Of a DNA stretch of 64,000 bases, positions 27,401 through 56,007 are shown piece by piece. Within the stretch, counting starts at the first letter, position 1, and each line of letters opens with the position of its first letter. Location: IMG/VR virus record IMGVR_UViG_3300017917_000616, positions 28,603 through 92,602 of that record; one strand, 5' to 3'. Source of the stretch: a virus. The position numbers and the translations under genes were made by a program. The notes beneath the pieces are model-generated. The model made no database searches and was not told the origin of the DNA. It worked only from the letters and a program-made list of their open reading frames with translations.

Positions 27401-30400
27401 AGAATGTTGTTTTATCGTTTATAGAATCATATGTTTCTGTAACTACCGTGTATTGTACGTTTTGACTAAACGCCGTTAAGTAAATACTTGTTCCAGCTGG
27501 TATTTCATATGAAGGATATATTGGCGGTACTAAATAGGCTGTTTCCTTAGTAAAGAAAATTGTTATTGGACTTTCTATAGTTCCAATAGTTGTCAATGCC
27601 CCAGAAGCACTATTAGTATTAGCTACTATAATTAATCCAGCAGCACATAATAGAACAGTGTAGGTACCATTATATGCGGTTGGTACCATACCGGAAACAG
27701 TTATCGTATCACCAGCTATGTAAGGAGGTGTAGGGTAAGTTACTGTACTATAGGAAAATCCTACAAAGGATGTATTCCAACCCACACTTGTCGGAGATAT
27801 TTCTCTGTCGTCAAAAGACTCTAATCCAATTGTATATAATCTATCACTATCGGCGCCTGTATTTGAAAAACTAACCTTGTCACCGTATGTTAATACAGCA
27901 CGTTGGTCGCCGTAGACTACAAAGAAATCATTACCATCTTCAAATGGATATTGTAGTACCATTCCTGTACTACTGTATGAAGTTAGAAATGAAACACTTT
28001 GTCCTTGATTTATTACAGAGTTATATTCGTATACGCTTTGCGATGCATTTACTAAAGTTTGTATTGGGTAGGATGGGTCTATGTTAACAGTAGTTCTACC
28101 TGTTCCAGCATTATATGTTCTTGAAGAAACTTTATAAGTTAATCCGTTAACTTGGAAAGAAATCATCATTCCAGGTTGTATCACTGTTGTTTGATTACCT
28201 AAAACTTGGAATGACGTTGCTCCAATAGAAATACTAGAAAACAATGTTACTCCAGATAGAACTTGATATTGAGTTAGATGCTGACCATTAACTGTAAAAG
28301 TATTATTTCCTACAGTAGTGGCGTTACTCAATGTCATACCAGCACTAATGTATGTAGGGACACTATCTAGTTGCCATGTTATTACACTCTCATCACCTAT
28401 AGCTGAGGTATACAAATAAGCACCATCATCAGAAATAGCCATGCTATCTCCTAACCTTCCACCTGAAACAGTAATTACTTGTTCTAGCGTCAAGCTGTTA
28501 ATGTTTGTAGATGTAGGTATCTTATATATGTATAACTGGCTAATGATAGAGCCAGGTTGTGATATTACAACAAACTCATTGCTATGGATTATTGCCTTAC
28601 CAAATTCAGTATTAGGGACAGTGAATGTGTCACGTAAATAGAATGTTCCGCTAGGACTTACACCATAATGGTAAACTGTACCATTGTTACTATCTCCTAC
28701 AAAGTAACCTAAGTTTTCAATATATGCTACACTGTTACCAAAATTGCTAGTAGTTTCAAATTTTTGTAACGGTAGATAATTGTAATTATTTGTCTTTTCG
28801 TATACGGTCCAATTACCTTCTGAGTTATAGTCTACCCATACTTTATTTGTAGTGTAGTCTGAGTTTAGTAACGGTAATCCGTCAATATCTCTAGCACTTA
28901 CGACACGTTGACTCTGTAACAAGAAAGTTATGCCCAAGCTAACTATTTCTGTAGTCGTAGTTGGAAGTGTTAGCGCAACAATTATATTAGTTATATCTAA
29001 AACTCTGTCTACTAAGTAGTATCCATTGACTAAAGGATCAAAATTAATTATACCAATTACTTGTTCTTCAAAGTATCCATGAGGTTTATCAAACGTTAGT
29101 GTGACTGTATTGTTATAATTATTTTGTACATTTATTAGCAATGCGCCTGTACTATACGGCGTGTATACTTGCCATTCATTCTTCTTATCGGCTACCCAAA
29201 TATAATCATTTTTATAGATTGTATTGATAGCACCATCTACTAAATCATTAATAGAGTATCCTATCTCTATCATATCATCGATGTTAGCGTATCCGGCGCT
29301 TGGTAATTTTTCTTGATATCCCGATTCCACCGTAGGCAAAATATTTTCGTTTTCTATCGGTCTAGCATAGTTTCTGATATTATAAAGAGGTATTTCTTGT
29401 TGTGCTCCATCAACAGATTCATCTTTGATTACGCTAACAATGCTTGGATTACCTGTTAACTTAGTCTCATTCAATGTAACTTCGATGAAGTTTTGATTGT
29501 TCAATCCACCAAACTCAGTAGTCTTAATAGCCCAATTTTCGTGAACATCATAGTTTAAGGTATTTTCTTGTAATACAACACCTTGTAGTCTGGTTACACT
29601 CTCTACAGTTCCCTTACTTCCTATCATATTTTTGTACACGTTTACTTGTGTAGCATCATCCAAATTAGCGTCTGCTAAATATTGTCTTGGTCTATAACCA
29701 ATCAATGAGAATGATAGTAAGTCTGCGTCTGATTCTAAGTTTGCCTTGTTAGGATCATAGAAGTAAACTGCCTCAGCGGCTCTAGTACTTGGATTTGGTA
29801 ATAATCCTTTTTGAATCATTTCGTAATCTGTTTTCATCCAATCATTATAATTGAACTTCACAGAAGGTAGTATGACTGTCTTATCTGCGATATAGTAGTC
29901 ATTCTTAAATTTGACAATGGTTCCTTTGTTATATTTTACATTTTCCTTCCATTCCTCAATGTTATCTTGATTGAGTATGAAGCCGGCGGCGTTTACTTGA
30001 CCGTTCCATTCAGCGGTCTTAGAGCCCTTAACGTAAATTCTTTGTTGACGCAATCCTGTTGTCAAATTATAGATTACGTCATTGAATACAGTAATATTAT
30101 CAAACAAAACAACATGTTCAAAGGTACTTAAATTTCCTCTGAAGAAACTTATAGTATCACCTTGATTTAATGTCTTAACATTGAATTCCGTATCGTTTCT
30201 ATAAACAGATAGGTCACTCAATCCAATTGGTATCAAGTTCTGATTAAGAATGAAATTCTCTTGGAAGAATGTTAATGGTTGAACAATAGAATTTTCTTTA
30301 TTAATAGAAATTATTCTAGCGCATGGGTTAACGTTAATAGTGCTACCTACATCCCATCCAGTCTGTATCCAATATGCCAATTCAGCAATCATTTGTTCCC

Positions 30401-51328: not shown

Positions 51329-51720
51329 AAAAAATTTTTGTAAACGGCACATTCGATTTGTTACATTTGGGGCATTTGGGTATCTTATCCTATGCTAAAA
51401 GTTTAGGAACACATTTGACTGTAGCTATTGATAGTGATAAAAGGGTTAAAAACCTAAAGGGTCCTGACAGACCTATAAACAAAGCATTTGATAGATTGAC
51501 AATGCTAAACGCAATGAAATGTGTTGATACTGTAATAGTTTTTGATACGGACGAAGAACTTATTGACTTAATCAAACAATGTGATATAATGGTTAAAGGC
51601 TCTGATTATAGAGGGCAACCCATTATAGGTGAAGAGTTTGCTAAAGAAATTGTCTTTTTCGAAAGAATAGATGGATACTCAACTACAGAAAAAATTCAAC
51701 GTATTACTAATCGGAGATAA
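51325..51720 (+). CDS. hldC: Heptose-1-phosphate adenylyltransferase-like (HldE C-terminal half)
   Basis: Nucleotidyltransferase of the cytidylyltransferase fold. GTFDLLHLGHLG (residues 8-19) holds the HxGH-type catalytic motif, and VKGSDYRG near residue 92 matches the conserved K-D-Y-G stretch of RfaE domain II. In LPS synthesis this reaction joins D-glycero-manno-heptose 1-phosphate and ATP to ADP-heptose. The next gene is the matching kinase half, which supports this over glycerol-3-phosphate cytidylyltransferase. 131 residues, the size of a lone domain. Overlaps gp46 as ATGA. Confidence 0.78.
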   Translation: MKKIFVNGTFDLLHLGHLGILSYAKSLGTHLTVAIDSDKRVKNLKGPDRPINKAFDRLTMLNAMKCVDTVIVFDTDEELIDLIKQCDIMVKGSDYRGQPIIGEEFAKEIVFFERIDGYSTTEKIQRITNRR

Positions 51721-52414
51721 TTGTATCGATGTGTACCAATACGGTACTGTTGATAGATTAAGTCCTGAGGCACCTGTTCCGATTTTTGTTCCAACACATA
51801 AAGAAGAACGTGAAGGTATGGTCGGAAACGTATACAAGAATTTACTAGCACTAGGGTGTGAAGTTACACTTGTATGTGGTCATGCTAGTAAGAAAACTAG
51901 ATTAGTTGATGCGAGAAGCAAGCAACAGATTACTAGAGTTGATGAAGATGTTAAATCGATACCTGTTGTGAATGTAGACACAACAGGTTACGATGCCATT
52001 GTTATTAGCGATTATGATAAAGGTGTTGTATCGTATGAGTTAATTGAAAAAATGATTAACACAAAACTTCCGGTTTTTATAGATACTAAAAAAACAGACT
52101 TAGGAAGAATGCAGGGAGCTTGGGTAAAAATCAACGAAGTAGAATATAGTCGTGTTAGGTCTGAATGTACTGGGCTTATTGTAACCAGAGGTTCAAAAGG
52201 AGCAGAAGTAATACATCATGATATTTGGTGTACTGCTCCTAAAATAGAAGTTGTAGATGTTACTGGAGCAGGTGATACTTTCTTGTCTGCTTTAACATAT
52301 CAATATTTGATTACTAAAAATATCAAAACTTCAGTAGAGTTTGCTATTAAGGCATCTAGCATTACTGTGAAACATTTTGGTGTGTACGCACCATCTTTAG
52401 AGGAAATTCAATGA
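51671..52414 (+). CDS. hldA: Heptose-7-phosphate kinase-like (HldE N-terminal half, pfkB family)
   Basis: A pfkB sugar kinase. The start NVLLIGDNCIDVYQYG, then DRLSPEAPVPIF, VISDYDKGV and the catalytic DVTGAGDTF (Asp202), match the kinase half of HldE, which phosphorylates D-glycero-manno-heptose 7-phosphate at C1. At 247 residues it is shorter than the usual about 310. The expected GGAAN segment reads GMVGNV, so the sugar pocket may differ. The ATG at 51671 overlaps the preceding gene by 50 bases; no later Met lies before the conserved glycine strand. Confidence 0.78.
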   Translation: MDTQLQKKFNVLLIGDNCIDVYQYGTVDRLSPEAPVPIFVPTHKEEREGMVGNVYKNLLALGCEVTLVCGHASKKTRLVDARSKQQITRVDEDVKSIPVVNVDTTGYDAIVISDYDKGVVSYELIEKMINTKLPVFIDTKKTDLGRMQGAWVKINEVEYSRVRSECTGLIVTRGSKGAEVIHHDIWCTAPKIEVVDVTGAGDTFLSALTYQYLITKNIKTSVEFAIKASSITVKHFGVYAPSLEEIQ

Positions 52415-52782
52415 CTAGGTTAGAGGGTTTTGTACAAAAAGGTTGGGGTAGTGAACTGATATTTGCTACCAATGACAAGTATTGTGGTAAAATTTTAAAC
52501 TTTAATGAGGGTGCTAAGTTTAGCATGCACTTTCATGCTCAAAAAGATGAGAGTTGGTTTGTTGTTACCGGTAAGTTTATTGTGAAGTATATTGACACTA
52601 CAAATGCCACCATTCTAGAAAAAGAACTAAATGCCGGTGATACATGGCATAATGAACCATTATTTCCGCATCAGTTGATTTGTTTAGAAGAAGGTATGAT
52701 AGTTGAAGTATCTACCCCCGATAGTGTAGAAGATAACTATAGGGTATTTCCAGGAGACAGTCAAAATGAAACTTGTTGTTGA
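52411..52782 (+). CDS. Cupin-fold sugar-isomerase-like protein
   Basis: 123 residues, a single cupin barrel. KGWGSELIFA at the start resembles the KPWG opening of type II mannose-6-phosphate isomerase. FSMHFHAQKDESWFVVTG carries the metal-binding His pair and Glu, and HNEPLFPHQLI the second His motif. Possible roles are isomerisation or epimerisation of a sugar phosphate in the pathway of the neighbouring heptose enzymes. It overlaps the kinase gene as ATGA and the next gene by 17 bases. The exact reaction is not known. Confidence 0.68.
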   Translation: MTRLEGFVQKGWGSELIFATNDKYCGKILNFNEGAKFSMHFHAQKDESWFVVTGKFIVKYIDTTNATILEKELNAGDTWHNEPLFPHQLICLEEGMIVEVSTPDSVEDNYRVFPGDSQNETCC

Positions 52783-53077
52783 TATCGATGGTACTATATG
52801 TACTAACACAAAAGGAGACTACCAATCTGCAGAACCATACATGGATCGTATTGCTCACTTTAACAAATTGTATGATGAGGGGCATGAGATACATTATTGG
52901 ACTGCTAGGGGAGGCAACACAAATATAGACTGGACTAAACTCACTATGCAGCAATTAAGTGAATGGGGAGTTAAGTATACCACCGCTAGGATGCATAAAC
53001 CTGTTTATGATTTATGGGTGGATGATAAAGCAATGAACGTAGAGGCTTATTTTGAAAATATTACTAACAGGGCATAA
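52766..53077 (+). CDS. Small HAD-family phosphatase
   Basis: 103 residues. VVDIDGTIC (Asp6, Asp8) is HAD motif I, IHYWTARG supplies the motif II Thr, and DLWVDDKAM the motif III/IV Asp pair, so it is a complete minimal HAD without a cap. Such proteins are often called capsule biosynthesis phosphatases. In this operon it could be the GmhB-type step that removes the C7 phosphate of heptose bisphosphate, although true GmhB is about 190 residues. It overlaps both neighbours. Confidence 0.72.
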   Translation: MKLVVDIDGTICTNTKGDYQSAEPYMDRIAHFNKLYDEGHEIHYWTARGGNTNIDWTKLTMQQLSEWGVKYTTARMHKPVYDLWVDDKAMNVEAYFENITNRA

Positions 53078-53867
53078 AGGTTTTATAGGTAGAAACATGC
53101 TACAGTATTTGGAAGATAATACTGATTGGCAGGTTGACACTTTTGATTGGCGCGGCGACATTATGCCAGGCATAATGGATAAAGACTGGGTCATACATAT
53201 AGGTGCTATAAGCTCTACAACGGAACGTGATATTGATAAAATCATGAAGCAAAATTATGATTTTTCTCGACAATTGTTTAAAGTATGTAAAACCTATGGA
53301 GTAAATCTACAATATTCTAGTACAGCTAGTTTATATGGAATGGGAACAAACTTCAGCGAAGAGGCACAACTTGATCCTATAACTCCGTACGCATGGTCAA
53401 AATATCTATGTGAGCGTTACCATCAGATGACCCAAGGTGGAAATATTGTACAGGGATTTAGGTATTTCAACGTTTACGGTAACGGGGAAGAACATAAAGG
53501 TAGTCAAGCTAGCCCCATTTCAAAATTCAAAAAACTAGCAGAAAACAACGAGCCTATTAAAATTTTTGAAGGTTCGAATGAATATTTTCGTGATTTTGTC
53601 TGTGTAACAGACGTATGTAGAGTACATGTTGAATTCATCAAAAATGTAAAAGAATCAGGTATTTTTAACATAGGTACTGGAAAAGCACGTAGCTTTCAAG
53701 AAGTCGCTGACTTGATTTCTAGCAATCAAGAATACATTCCTATACCAGAACATCTGCTTAGAAGCTATCAAAAATACACATGTAGCGATAATTCTAAGCT
53801 AGAGCGGGTACTAGGACCGCAAAAATGGATAACAATAGAAGATTTTTTAAAGTCACAAAAAGTTTGA
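53052..53867 (+). CDS. hldD: ADP-glycero-manno-heptose 6-epimerase-like protein
   Basis: Short-chain epimerase. LLTGHKGFIGRN is the NAD(P) glycine motif, HIGAISSTTERD matches the SSTTE segment special to HldD, Y113-AWS-K117 is the catalytic YxxxK, and FRYFNVYGNGEEHKGSQAS and NEYFRDFVCVTDVCRV are further HldD words. HldD turns ADP-D-glycero- into ADP-L-glycero-manno-heptose. Length 271 against about 310 in bacteria. It overlaps the HAD gene by 26 bases. Together with the kinase and adenylyltransferase this is strong evidence for nucleotide-heptose synthesis. Confidence 0.85.
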   Translation: MKILLTGHKGFIGRNMLQYLEDNTDWQVDTFDWRGDIMPGIMDKDWVIHIGAISSTTERDIDKIMKQNYDFSRQLFKVCKTYGVNLQYSSTASLYGMGTNFSEEAQLDPITPYAWSKYLCERYHQMTQGGNIVQGFRYFNVYGNGEEHKGSQASPISKFKKLAENNEPIKIFEGSNEYFRDFVCVTDVCRVHVEFIKNVKESGIFNIGTGKARSFQEVADLISSNQEYIPIPEHLLRSYQKYTCSDNSKLERVLGPQKWITIEDFLKSQKV

Positions 53868-53872
53868 TAAGT

Positions 53873-54433
53873 ATGATTATGCCAAGTCCACAGAAACAGA
53901 AGGGTTCAGGTTTTGAACGAGAAGTTGCTAAGTTTTTAAGCAATTTATATAACGAGAGTTTTATCCGAGCACCAGGATCCGGAGCGTATGTGGGCGGTAC
54001 AAATCAATCTAGGAAAGAATTCCTACATGAAGGTCAAATTCGTAGCTTTAAAGGGGACATAGTTCCTGGACAAAGTTTTTCGAAAATGAATGCTGAATGT
54101 AAGAGTTACAAAGACTTCCCCTTTCACCTACTTCTTACAGGTGAATGCGCTCAATTTGACAAGTGGCTAGAACAACTGTTAGATGTAGCAGATCCTGATG
54201 ATATGAACATTCTGTTTATGAAATTCAATCGTATAGGTCGTTATGTCGCTGTACAACCAAAACTAACATGGATGATTGATAGTTTCACTTTCTATGGTAG
54301 TAAAAAGTACGGTGATTGGTATATCACAGAGTTCGACAACTTTTTCAAACTCAATAAAGACTTAGTAAAACTTTACTCAGGCTCATCAGACACCAAGTCA
54401 ATCTCAACTCCCAAACAATTAATTCAGGCTTAA
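53873..54433 (+). CDS. PD-(D/E)XK nuclease, Holliday-junction resolvase-like
   Basis: GSGFEREVAKFL near the start, GSGAYVGG, KGDIVP (Asp62) and AECKSY (Glu75, Lys77) give the PD-(D/E)XK active site in the Hjc/RecB-like order. Such enzymes cut branched DNA or act as repair nucleases. I prefer ATG at 53873, just after the hldD stop; ATG 53879 and an overlapping ATG at 53825 are alternatives. 186 residues. It ends the plus-strand run, right before the structured RNA region. A role with gp46/47 in recombination is plausible. T4 uses gp49 for this, which is unrelated. Confidence 0.65.
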   Translation: MIMPSPQKQKGSGFEREVAKFLSNLYNESFIRAPGSGAYVGGTNQSRKEFLHEGQIRSFKGDIVPGQSFSKMNAECKSYKDFPFHLLLTGECAQFDKWLEQLLDVADPDDMNILFMKFNRIGRYVAVQPKLTWMIDSFTFYGSKKYGDWYITEFDNFFKLNKDLVKLYSGSSDTKSISTPKQLIQA

Positions 54434-54449
54434 TATAAATTAAAAATTA

Positions 54450-54905
54450 GCAGGCTGTGTTTGACAGTCCTCCTTGAAGAAGCGTGAAATATCGCCGATG
54501 GATCTGGAGTATCGATGTTAGTAATAACATCGGATCACCGAGAGGGCAATCTGTCTAGGGAACCCTCAATGAGTACATATCTAATTCCATTTTGCGGATA
54601 TGTAACATGCGTTGTCGAGGCATCATATAATAGAGAATATGACAGTCTCACTACAAACCCGTAAAAATTTACAGGACAACCGGTGACATGTGAGAACAAA
54701 AACGGTTACTCATGTGGGGTATAAATGGCAATGGATGACGGGCATGGCAAGTCTTTTCCAATGGTAGTGCTGAAATAGCACTACCATGGCTTCAAAGCGG
54801 CAAGTATAGTTTCCCCTTAATAAAGTGAATACAGAATTAAAACGATGCTGAACAATACGAACGAAGTGAGTATTGTGATAGCATAGATGACCGAAGGTCA
54901 TCTTT
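54450..54905 (+). ncRNA. Candidate large structured noncoding RNA (about 450-500 nt)
   Basis: The 522 bases between convergent genes (54434-54955) hold no convincing gene but many strong stems. (1) AGGCTGT/ACAG-T-CCT, 54452-54471. (2) CGATGTTA-GTAA-TAACATCG, 54513-54532, 8 bp closed by a GNRA loop on the plus strand. (3) GAGGG/CCCTC, 54542-54567. (4) TACATATC/GATATGTA, 54574-54604. (5) ATGGTAGTGCT-GAAAT-AGCACTACCAT, 54761-54787, 11 bp. (6) A long arm at 54845-54884: ATGCT/AGCAT, a GA/GAT inner loop, ACAATAC/GTATTGT, tandem GA/GA, AC/GT, GAA loop. (7) AGATGACC-GAA-GGTCATCT, 54885-54903. GNRA and tandem-GA features make the plus strand the likely RNA. It could be the 3' end of the operon message or a free RNA. 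Size and setting recall the ornate phage RNAs (GOLLD, ROOL), but I cannot confirm a match. Ends are approximate. Confidence 0.7.
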
Positions 54906-54955
54906 AAATGAGTGTGACAATTACCCTAAGTTACTATAATGAATAGCTACGGATA

Positions 54956-55183
54956 TTAAAAGAATGGCAATCTAGAATTCTTAGTAGTTTCTAAGTTTTC
55001 TTCAATCAGTTTAGCTATACTTTCTCTTTCACTCATACTCATATTAAGTATATCGGTGTAGGAAGCCCCGCCTCTCATATACCAAGCCATTTTTAATGAA
55101 TTGGCTTTGATGGCTTTACACTCCTCTTCCATTTGACTTATCAACTTCTTAATTTCCTCGGAGTCAAGGAAAAGAAGTCTCAT
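54956..55183 (-). CDS. 51: gp51-like baseplate hub assembly protein
   Basis: 75 residues. The core AIKANSLKMAWYMRGGASY, then LNMSMSERESIAKLIEENLETTK and a final LPFF, matches the short protein found beside gp26 in marine T4-like phages, where it is called gp51. T4 gp51 (about 250 residues) is thought to help assemble the hub without being part of it. The start overlaps the gp26-like stop as ATGA. The name rests on gene order and remembered family words. Confidence 0.55.
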   Translation of the reverse strand: MRLLFLDSEEIKKLISQMEEECKAIKANSLKMAWYMRGGASYTDILNMSMSERESIAKLIEENLETTKNSRLPFF

Positions 55184-56007
55184 GCGAAAAAATCGGATAC
55201 GTTGATGTTAAATGGCTGATCGTATTCATGTTGACAATGAATACATTGAAAATGTAATGGTTTAGTTTCAGTAGATTTTTTAAGTTCTACACTGTAGTTT
55301 CGTATCTGGTCATATGTTTTTAGGTCGCAATTATCTAAAAACTCTTTAATATGGCTTCTATCTAGCACAGTGGCGTTTGGTGTTTTTACATATTCGATAG
55401 ATTCTAATACCAATTCTCTAGCCAGATCATTCATACTTTTAATCAACTCACTACTTTGCTTATCACGCTCAGGGCTATCGTCCATAGCACTGATTCTGTT
55501 CAACTGATATTGAACCTCAAACTGTGCGGATCCAGCTTTATTGATTTTAGTAAAATCTAAAGGTTTAAACTTAATTTTTAGTTCACTGATATCTAACGTT
55601 TTAGCATAATTTCCGGGCTTATAGTTTCCTAATAAACCAGTAAGATTAATATCATACTTGCCCTCTTCTGTGCAGCTTGGGCATACAGTTTCTATTTCCA
55701 TAGTATCGCCATTGCTAGCAATCTTAATAGCAAGCAAGACCGCATCTAAATCTAGTTGAAGAATATGCCATGGATCTTTTATGTTTGGGGCACAGCTTTT
55801 AATCAGTTCTGTAACAGCAATACCGTTGAATAAAGCATCGGGAGTTCTGCTGGTGATTTCATCAATCGCAGTCATAGGATAAATGGGTATTTCTCCGTTG
55901 TCAGGTAAATCTATACTACCCTCTGGGTAACCTTGTCCCCCTGAGGGCAACTTCAGGTACAGAGCAGGTCTACGAAAATAGTTTTGTAATGGGTTGATAT
56001 CTGACAT
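55180..56007 (-). CDS. 26: gp26-like baseplate hub assembly protein
   Basis: 275 residues with the layout of the T4 gp26 hub-assembly family: RRPALYLKLPSGGQGYPEG at the start, IPIYPMTAIDEITSRTPDAL, CAPNIKDPWHILQLDLDAVL, and two cysteine pairs, CPSC (109-112) and CIHC (255-258), that could bind zinc. It is longer than T4 gp26 (208). A TATAAATA late motif lies 52 bases upstream and an AGGAG ribosome site is at 56013-56017. Pairing with the gp51-like gene and with the tape measure on the other side is as in T4. Confidence 0.8.
   Translation of the reverse strand: MSDINPLQNYFRRPALYLKLPSGGQGYPEGSIDLPDNGEIPIYPMTAIDEITSRTPDALFNGIAVTELIKSCAPNIKDPWHILQLDLDAVLLAIKIASNGDTMEIETVCPSCTEEGKYDINLTGLLGNYKPGNYAKTLDISELKIKFKPLDFTKINKAGSAQFEVQYQLNRISAMDDSPERDKQSSELIKSMNDLARELVLESIEYVKTPNATVLDRSHIKEFLDNCDLKTYDQIRNYSVELKKSTETKPLHFQCIHCQHEYDQPFNINVSDFFA

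Follow-up and report, generated by a model that had tools for sequence, protein, structure and literature searches.

The window analysed here is the whole 64,000-nt stretch presented (positions 28,603 to 92,602) of a 92.6-kb IMG/VR virus record, IMGVR_UViG_3300017917_000616. At positions 54434-54955 of the window lies a gap of 522 nt, flanked by two convergent genes: on its 5′ side, a PDDEXK endonuclease gene (PF24608, phrog_244; 53825..54433, plus strand; Pfam 9.1e-25, PHROG 3.8e-18), and on its 3′ side, a 75-aa gene (54956..55183, minus strand) for which Pfam and PHROG searches at E 0.001 gave no family. Next comes a gp26-like baseplate hub gene (PF12322, phrog_150; 55180..56007, minus strand, also convergent; Pfam 9.1e-18, PHROG 2.7e-19), and beyond it a 947-aa ORF and the gp20 portal gene. 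By greedy tiling with ORFs of at least 60 aa, and with one spurious minus-strand ORF inside it removed, the gap is the largest in the window (522 nt vs 150 nt for the next-largest; median gap −2.5), and the first-pass annotation was right to call such a gene-free interval between convergent genes unusual. The ORFs within it are all short, the longest being a minus-strand frame of 63 aa. Just 5′ of the PDDEXK gene, Pfam and PHROG identify sugar/heptose genes (51671-53867) encoding a PfkB-type kinase domain, a member of a phosphoheptose isomerase family (phrog_1238) and a nucleotide-sugar epimerase. Judged by portal protein, the window comes closest among named phages to Sinorhizobium phage Phosso (56%), the PA5oct group (52%) and Atu_ph07 (50%).

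Using the PDDEXK and gp26 products as protein queries, we retrieved 49 loci, nearly all of which have a homologous gap, mostly of 410-611 nt and about 67-82% identical to that of the window over the matching stretch. Further loci came from two scans of the viral collection by motif, so that the resulting counts for these RNAs, termed here class I, are lower bounds. A profile built from the homologous gaps matches at least 219 of 227 loci, on contigs of up to 524 kb, and there are at least 138 distinct full-length class I sequences, with a mean identity of 70%. Wherever a class I locus is not truncated by the end of its contig, the PDDEXK gene lies 5′ of the RNA, and the gene order PDDEXK (plus), RNA (plus), small gene and/or gp26 (both minus) holds in all untruncated loci with a recognised downstream neighbour, the small gene being the counterpart of the 75-aa gene of the window; eight class I loci have no recognised downstream neighbour. 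In three loci (L342, L352 and L364) an extra gene stands between PDDEXK and the RNA, and the RNA model match is found about 1 kb further downstream. Loci found by motif are biased towards presence of the RNA, and we therefore scored retention solely on protein-retrieved loci, where the RNA is kept in 106 of 106 distinct loci with a PDDEXK identity of at least 65%; with protein and motif loci mixed, the figure is at least 178/178. The class I RNA has a fixed genome position and is strictly retained in the close clade.

The interval 54434-54955 specifies a large plus-strand RNA that is structured and does not code for protein. In an alignment of 60 divergent class I sequences (A1), the consensus structure comprises 102 pairs, 67 of which show changes on both sides, and double-change cells number 789 compared with 242 in shuffles. 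In the same alignment 93.2% of cells are paired, as against 33-42% when the structure is slid; the structure was derived from A1 itself and so has an advantage over its slid versions, though hardly one so large. Covariation was assessed with an R-scape-like test written for this work (a G-test with APC, against tree- and substitution-preserving null alignments in 40 replicates), which on the 138 distinct sequences gave 30 pairs significant at E<0.05 against the phylogenetic null, 26 of them Watson-Crick or wobble pairs. The first-pass annotation had proposed a large structured phage RNA and had named covariation in homologous gaps as the test and a conserved reading frame across the gap as the observation that would overturn it; covariation supports the proposal, and no stop-free frame exists on either strand in the 60 class I sequences. 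With a folding energy of −145 kcal/mol and z −4.0, the plus strand does better than all 100 shuffles, but so does the minus strand, at z −4.4, and energy alone therefore cannot assign the strand. The assignment rests instead on the consensus helices, in which G-U pairs outnumber A-C mismatches by 374 to 95, indicating a plus-strand RNA, as had been proposed earlier from the GNRA and GA features of the gap.

The core of the RNA is about 360 nt long (54446..54806, from AATTAGCAG to GCGGCAAGT), as supported by the gap profile and by two covariance models, R1 (144.7 bits on 54450-54613) and R2 (184.8 bits on 54609-54805). Among its elements P1 is weak, with one-sided changes only, as are P2 and P12, each about 78% paired. 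Hairpin P2 (54455..54467; 78% paired) has changes on both sides in 4/4 pairs. P3 (54470..54509; 99.2% paired) joins CTCCTTGA at 54470-54477 to TCTGGAG at 54503-54509 and encloses P4 (54478-54499), in which 5/6 pairs have double changes. The P4 apical hairpin occurs in distinct versions (GTACAGATTGTGCTGTGC, GCGTGAAATATCGC and GCCGAGGTAAGGCTCGTAGC) scattered among otherwise similar RNAs, a distribution that suggests exchange of a hairpin module. We considered whether CCTCCTT might mimic an anti-Shine-Dalgarno sequence, and set the idea aside: in the more distant RNAs of class II, described below, the two partners of this P3 helix change together to CCCA/TGGG, so that pairing rather than sequence seems to be what is important. 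Hairpin P5 (CGATGTTA-GTAA-TAACATCG, 54513..54532) has changes on both sides in 8/8 pairs, and its apical part matches a GNRA loop, by a loose pattern, in 40/60 homologues, a trend within which the GTAA loop of the window falls.

The central junction (54536..54685) is closed by P6 (54536-54540 with 54681-54685; 98% paired) and contains P7/P8 (54542-54567; P7 100% paired), P9 (54569-54608; 99.5%), P11 (54611-54616 with 54675-54680; 95.3%) and the weaker P12 (54617-54649; 78.7%), with many compensatory pairs. Two pseudoknots, which the first reading of the sequence had missed, tie the junction to the region downstream. In PK1, CCATTT in the P9 loop (54587..54592) pairs with AAATGG (54723..54728); it is 98.9% paired, 5/6 of its pairs have double changes and two are significant against the phylogenetic null. 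In PK2, ACCC (54657..54660) pairs with GGGT (54717..54720), with 98.2% paired and double changes in 3/4 pairs. Hairpin P15 (54687..54716; 84.7% paired) has double changes in 10/11 pairs, and hairpin P17 (TGGTAGTGC...GCACTACCATGG, 54758..54789; 97.9% paired) has two arms that are almost invariant. On the 3′ side of the core there is an imperfect long arm of the GAACGAAGTGAG type (54845..54884), similar to an element in most homologues.

Several stems named in the first-pass annotation are real: an 11-bp stem with its core at 54762-54786, the GTAA-loop stem (54513-54532), a GAA-loop stem (54885-54903) and the long arm at about 54845-54884. Two alternative pairings suggested at the same time fail in the homologues. 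For 54495-54500 with 54528-54533, pairing drops to 10-67% at 4/6 positions, and the long-range pairing of 54474-54479 with 54790-54795 falls to 53% and 27% at two positions, with no compensatory change.

Numerous unpaired positions are also invariant in alignment A1. For loci that were fetched with these motifs, sequence invariance is partly by construction; in the protein-retrieved subset (n=25), CTCCTTGA and CTGGAGT are present in 25/25 and the exact P17 in 21/25. One idea is that invariant ACTAC (54650-54654) may pair with the 5′ arm of P17 to form a switch, the columns concerned being invariant and hence without covariation. Inspection of A1 revealed no conserved self-complementary loop that would hint at kissing contacts, and one apical loop is engaged in an intramolecular pseudoknot.

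The limits of the transcript can be placed provisionally. At 54434..54441 (plus strand), TATAAATT matches the T4 late promoter TATAAATA at 7/8 positions, and a 7/8 match just 5′ of the RNA occurs in 53/135 homologues, compared with 22.7 expected from shuffles. A full 8/8 late promoter is absent upstream of the window RNA, and a perfect TATAAATA is found ahead of gp26 on the minus strand. The signal is weak, and suggestive only of TATAAATT being the promoter of the RNA. Directly 5′ of the RNA, most class I members also have the box TAAMAATTNG. At the other end, the hairpin AGATGACC-GAA-GGTCATCT (54885..54903, plus strand) is seen in nearly all homologous gaps, with varying arms; an automated test found a perfect hairpin with a T-rich tail in 107/132 loci, 74 of which have the GAA loop, and a stricter terminator scan of the window did not call the hairpin at 54885-54903. 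This hairpin is probably a terminator, and the 3′ end of the RNA.

How does this RNA compare with those already catalogued? A search of the gap against Rfam 15 returned nothing relevant, whether cut at the gathering score or relaxed to E values of up to 10; in particular, the models for GOLLD, ROOL, HEARO and group I and group II introns have no match in the gap. ARAGORN found neither a tmRNA architecture nor tRNA genes in the window. Nucleotide searches with classes I, II and III against 50,697 named phages gave no match, and model R1 gave no credible match in the cultured jumbo phages PA5oct, Phosso, Atu_ph07, SCTP-2 and Vibrio 2.275.O. A scan of bacterial genomes with the class I motif produced 16 pattern matches, none of which had an nhmmer match at E up to 10, and we attribute them to chance. 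A cis-regulatory leader or riboswitch was also considered; but whenever a class I locus is untruncated and its neighbour recognised, the gene that follows runs towards the RNA on the opposite strand, and the RNA is therefore no leader. Relative to Rfam 15 and the open-access literature searched, these results support a new RNA class, as had been thought possible from the sequence of the gap.

The earlier comparison with GOLLD and ROOL holds as a loose analogy. Both are large, ornate RNAs of phages and prophages, GOLLD being pseudoknotted and ROOL having multiple pseudoknots, and the RNA described here is likewise large, knotted and phage-borne. The likeness does not extend to family membership, because there is no Rfam match; both GOLLD and ROOL are longer than the core of about 360 nt and are frequently located near tRNA islands (PMC12286853), whereas the window has no tRNA. 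The virulent myovirus phage K has abundant long noncoding RNAs, whose authors compare them with GOLLD and ROOL on the basis of location and transcription (PMC9241854); these RNAs belong to a different phage family and context.

More distant relatives were reached with the PDDEXK product of locus L035 as query, which led to loci whose PDDEXK proteins are 52-63% identical to that of the window. Many of these carry a second type of RNA, class II (CCCATTGAG...CTTGGGTGYCAAAGG), where a different complementary pair of arms stands in place of the class I P3 arms. R1, the 5′ model of class I, detects class II loci at the expected place (E 1.3e-10 to about 1e-3), and the 3′ model R2, searched at E up to 10, matches nothing in the corresponding slot of class II or class III loci. 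In class III, the 5′ half is Rfam's Polynucleobacter-1 RNA (RF01718), matched at 90-120 bits: L353:3528-3663 (120.5 bits), L420:10901-11033 (118.8), L378:2149-2288 (93.5) and L428:2395-2528 (89.9). The phage RNA is longer than the match, which accounts for its 5′ half: the class III element runs about 250 nt past the RF01718 part and has a strongly conserved 3′ domain. RF01718 itself has no match in the window gap (E up to 10) or in the whole 92.6-kb record.

A scan with GGTACMGGNCAACCGCCTC yielded at least 120 stretches. In at least 106 of 123 full-length class II/III cases both downstream motifs, ACTCRGATRA and ATCTRGATRA, which lie outside the query, are present, and in at least 117 of 118 the base after GTTG is complementary to the base before CAAC, the class I counterpart being P11 with GTTGC/GCAAC. 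Class II has 11 and class III nine significant complementary pairs of its own. The variable positions of the twin motifs (e.g., in L353 and L329) covary non-complementarily, apparently as identical purines; judging from sequence, the two copies apparently behave as if they recognised one shared, changing partner.

Among the class II/III matches listed, the upstream gene is on the same strand in 113/117 and no more than a few hundred bases away, and in 97/119 the gene that follows is convergent. The upstream gene encodes PDDEXK in at least 34 loci and a GIY-YIG-like protein in at least 65, in a similar slot; the latter call is a putative one, read from the sequence GFVYLITN...YVGKK. In many class II/III loci the GIY-YIG-like gene replaces PDDEXK directly 5′ of the RNA (e.g., L428:1916-2344). 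Several class III loci, such as L353, sit between PDDEXK and convergent small/gp26 genes, in the same slot as the window RNA, and classes II and III include loci with neither a gp26-like nor a portal neighbour recognised nearby.

In a further relative, L386, repeated AGGCTAA/AGGCTTT-like elements fill the stretch after PDDEXK and are followed by sequence with the class II/III core. In the cultured phage PA5oct, a long gap without annotated genes separates PDDEXK from gp26 (76517-77179; L244:3018-3680); it folds much better than shuffled sequence (z −7.2, 20 shuffles), but the class I model does not match it. It is possibly a tractable relative or possibly just inverted repeats. Phosso has a 1-kb gap without annotated genes beside PDDEXK (229759-230772; L245:2260-3273), with hairpins that resemble the 3′ tail of the phage RNAs.

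Because classes I and II share a 5′ domain and classes II and III a 3′ domain, the link between I and III runs through class II and position only. The best reading of these sequence relationships is that class I is a new class of a mosaic superfamily that includes Polynucleobacter-1. The likeness to Polynucleobacter-1 lies in class III, several members of which occupy the class I slot and which shares its 3′ domain with class II; the differences are that the Rfam model has 141 nt, against roughly three times that length for the phage RNAs, and that the window RNA has no RF01718 match. Weinberg et al. mark Polynucleobacter-1 with a lower-case y in a column that we read as cis-regulatory (PMC2864571); the convergent arrangement found here speaks against a cis-regulatory Polynucleobacter-1. 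A freshwater habitat is suggested from the Polynucleobacter-1 record only.

With regard to function, we lean, by a little over even chances, towards an autonomous gene for a trans-acting noncoding RNA, which probably serves as a stable scaffold and binds a partner from the phage or the host. From the features described, a plus-strand transcript would be made, with its core at about 54446-54806 and its 3′ end probably at 54885-54903; the transcription, promoter and 3′ end are all proposed from the sequence. The transcript would fold into a compact particle through the central multi-helix junction and the two pseudoknots, and would act in trans during infection, presumably late. The partner, whether of phage or host, could be bound through the invariant unpaired segments and the invariant 3′ hairpin P17, the scaffold role being suggested by analogy with other large RNAs; our searches found neither a partner protein nor a catalytic motif for the window RNA. 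Autonomy is supported by the convergent next gene, by the exchange of the upstream gene and by the intervening gene in L342, L352 and L364. More tentatively, and with clearly less confidence, the three classes may be mosaic trans-acting RNAs, with swapped 5′ and 3′ modules at one locus of T4-related jumbo phages, that serve a hitherto unrecognised RNA-requiring step of infection such as an RNA-only or RNP assembly, Polynucleobacter-1 being one fragment of them.

The main rival to a partner-binding scaffold is a homo-oligomeric RNA-only assembly, a cage or multimer made in infection, to which we would give perhaps one chance in several. GOLLD and ROOL assemble as RNA-only nanocages (PMC12286853), and like them the RNA is large, pseudoknotted, phage-encoded, highly conserved and devoid of an obvious protein partner; like the mosaic superfamily, GOLLD combines a conserved half with a variable one. 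On the other hand, there is no family match, the core of about 360 nt compares with more than 600-800 nt, the window has no tRNA, no conserved self-complementary loop was seen on inspection of A1, and one apical loop is taken up by an intramolecular pseudoknot. The position of class I next to the gp26-like gene and near the gp20 portal gene raises the thought of a morphogenesis RNA, acting on the adjacent portal or baseplate in a role like that of the phi29 packaging RNA. We consider this unlikely, since adjacency is not function and classes II and III include loci with neither neighbour recognised nearby; nor is T4-type packaging known to depend on an RNA.

An equally improbable role is that of a cis-acting 3′ element through which the mRNA of the upstream nuclease would be stabilised, terminated or processed. 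The constant presence of PDDEXK upstream of untruncated class I loci would fit such an element, as would the nearby same-strand upstream gene in at least 113 of 117 class II/III cases, within a few hundred bases, but the RNA stays when the upstream gene is swapped, and a doubly pseudoknotted element of 360 nt is more than the purpose would call for. The GIY-YIG-like proteins directly upstream in many class II/III loci might point to part of a mobile element or to the remnant of an intron or homing system; there is no Rfam intron match and no interrupted gene, the position is fixed, the close clade retains the RNA strictly and no empty site was seen among close relatives, and we regard this origin as very improbable. 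Finally, chance structure or an overlooked coding region, for which the gap offers its short ORFs (up to 63 aa, on the minus strand), can be set aside almost entirely, being refuted by the covariation and by the lack of a conserved frame. The reading we prefer, an autonomous RNA gene acting in trans, is also the simplest.

Few large structured RNAs are known from phages, and the RNA described here adds a distinct class, supported by covariation and containing two pseudoknots, which in its class I form is strictly retained by a clade whose members are large phages, most of them uncultured. The alignment opens the way to structure determination and to a targeted search for cultured carriers. In addition, the orphan Polynucleobacter-1 RNA gains a phage home, and its deposited model represents only part of the molecule.
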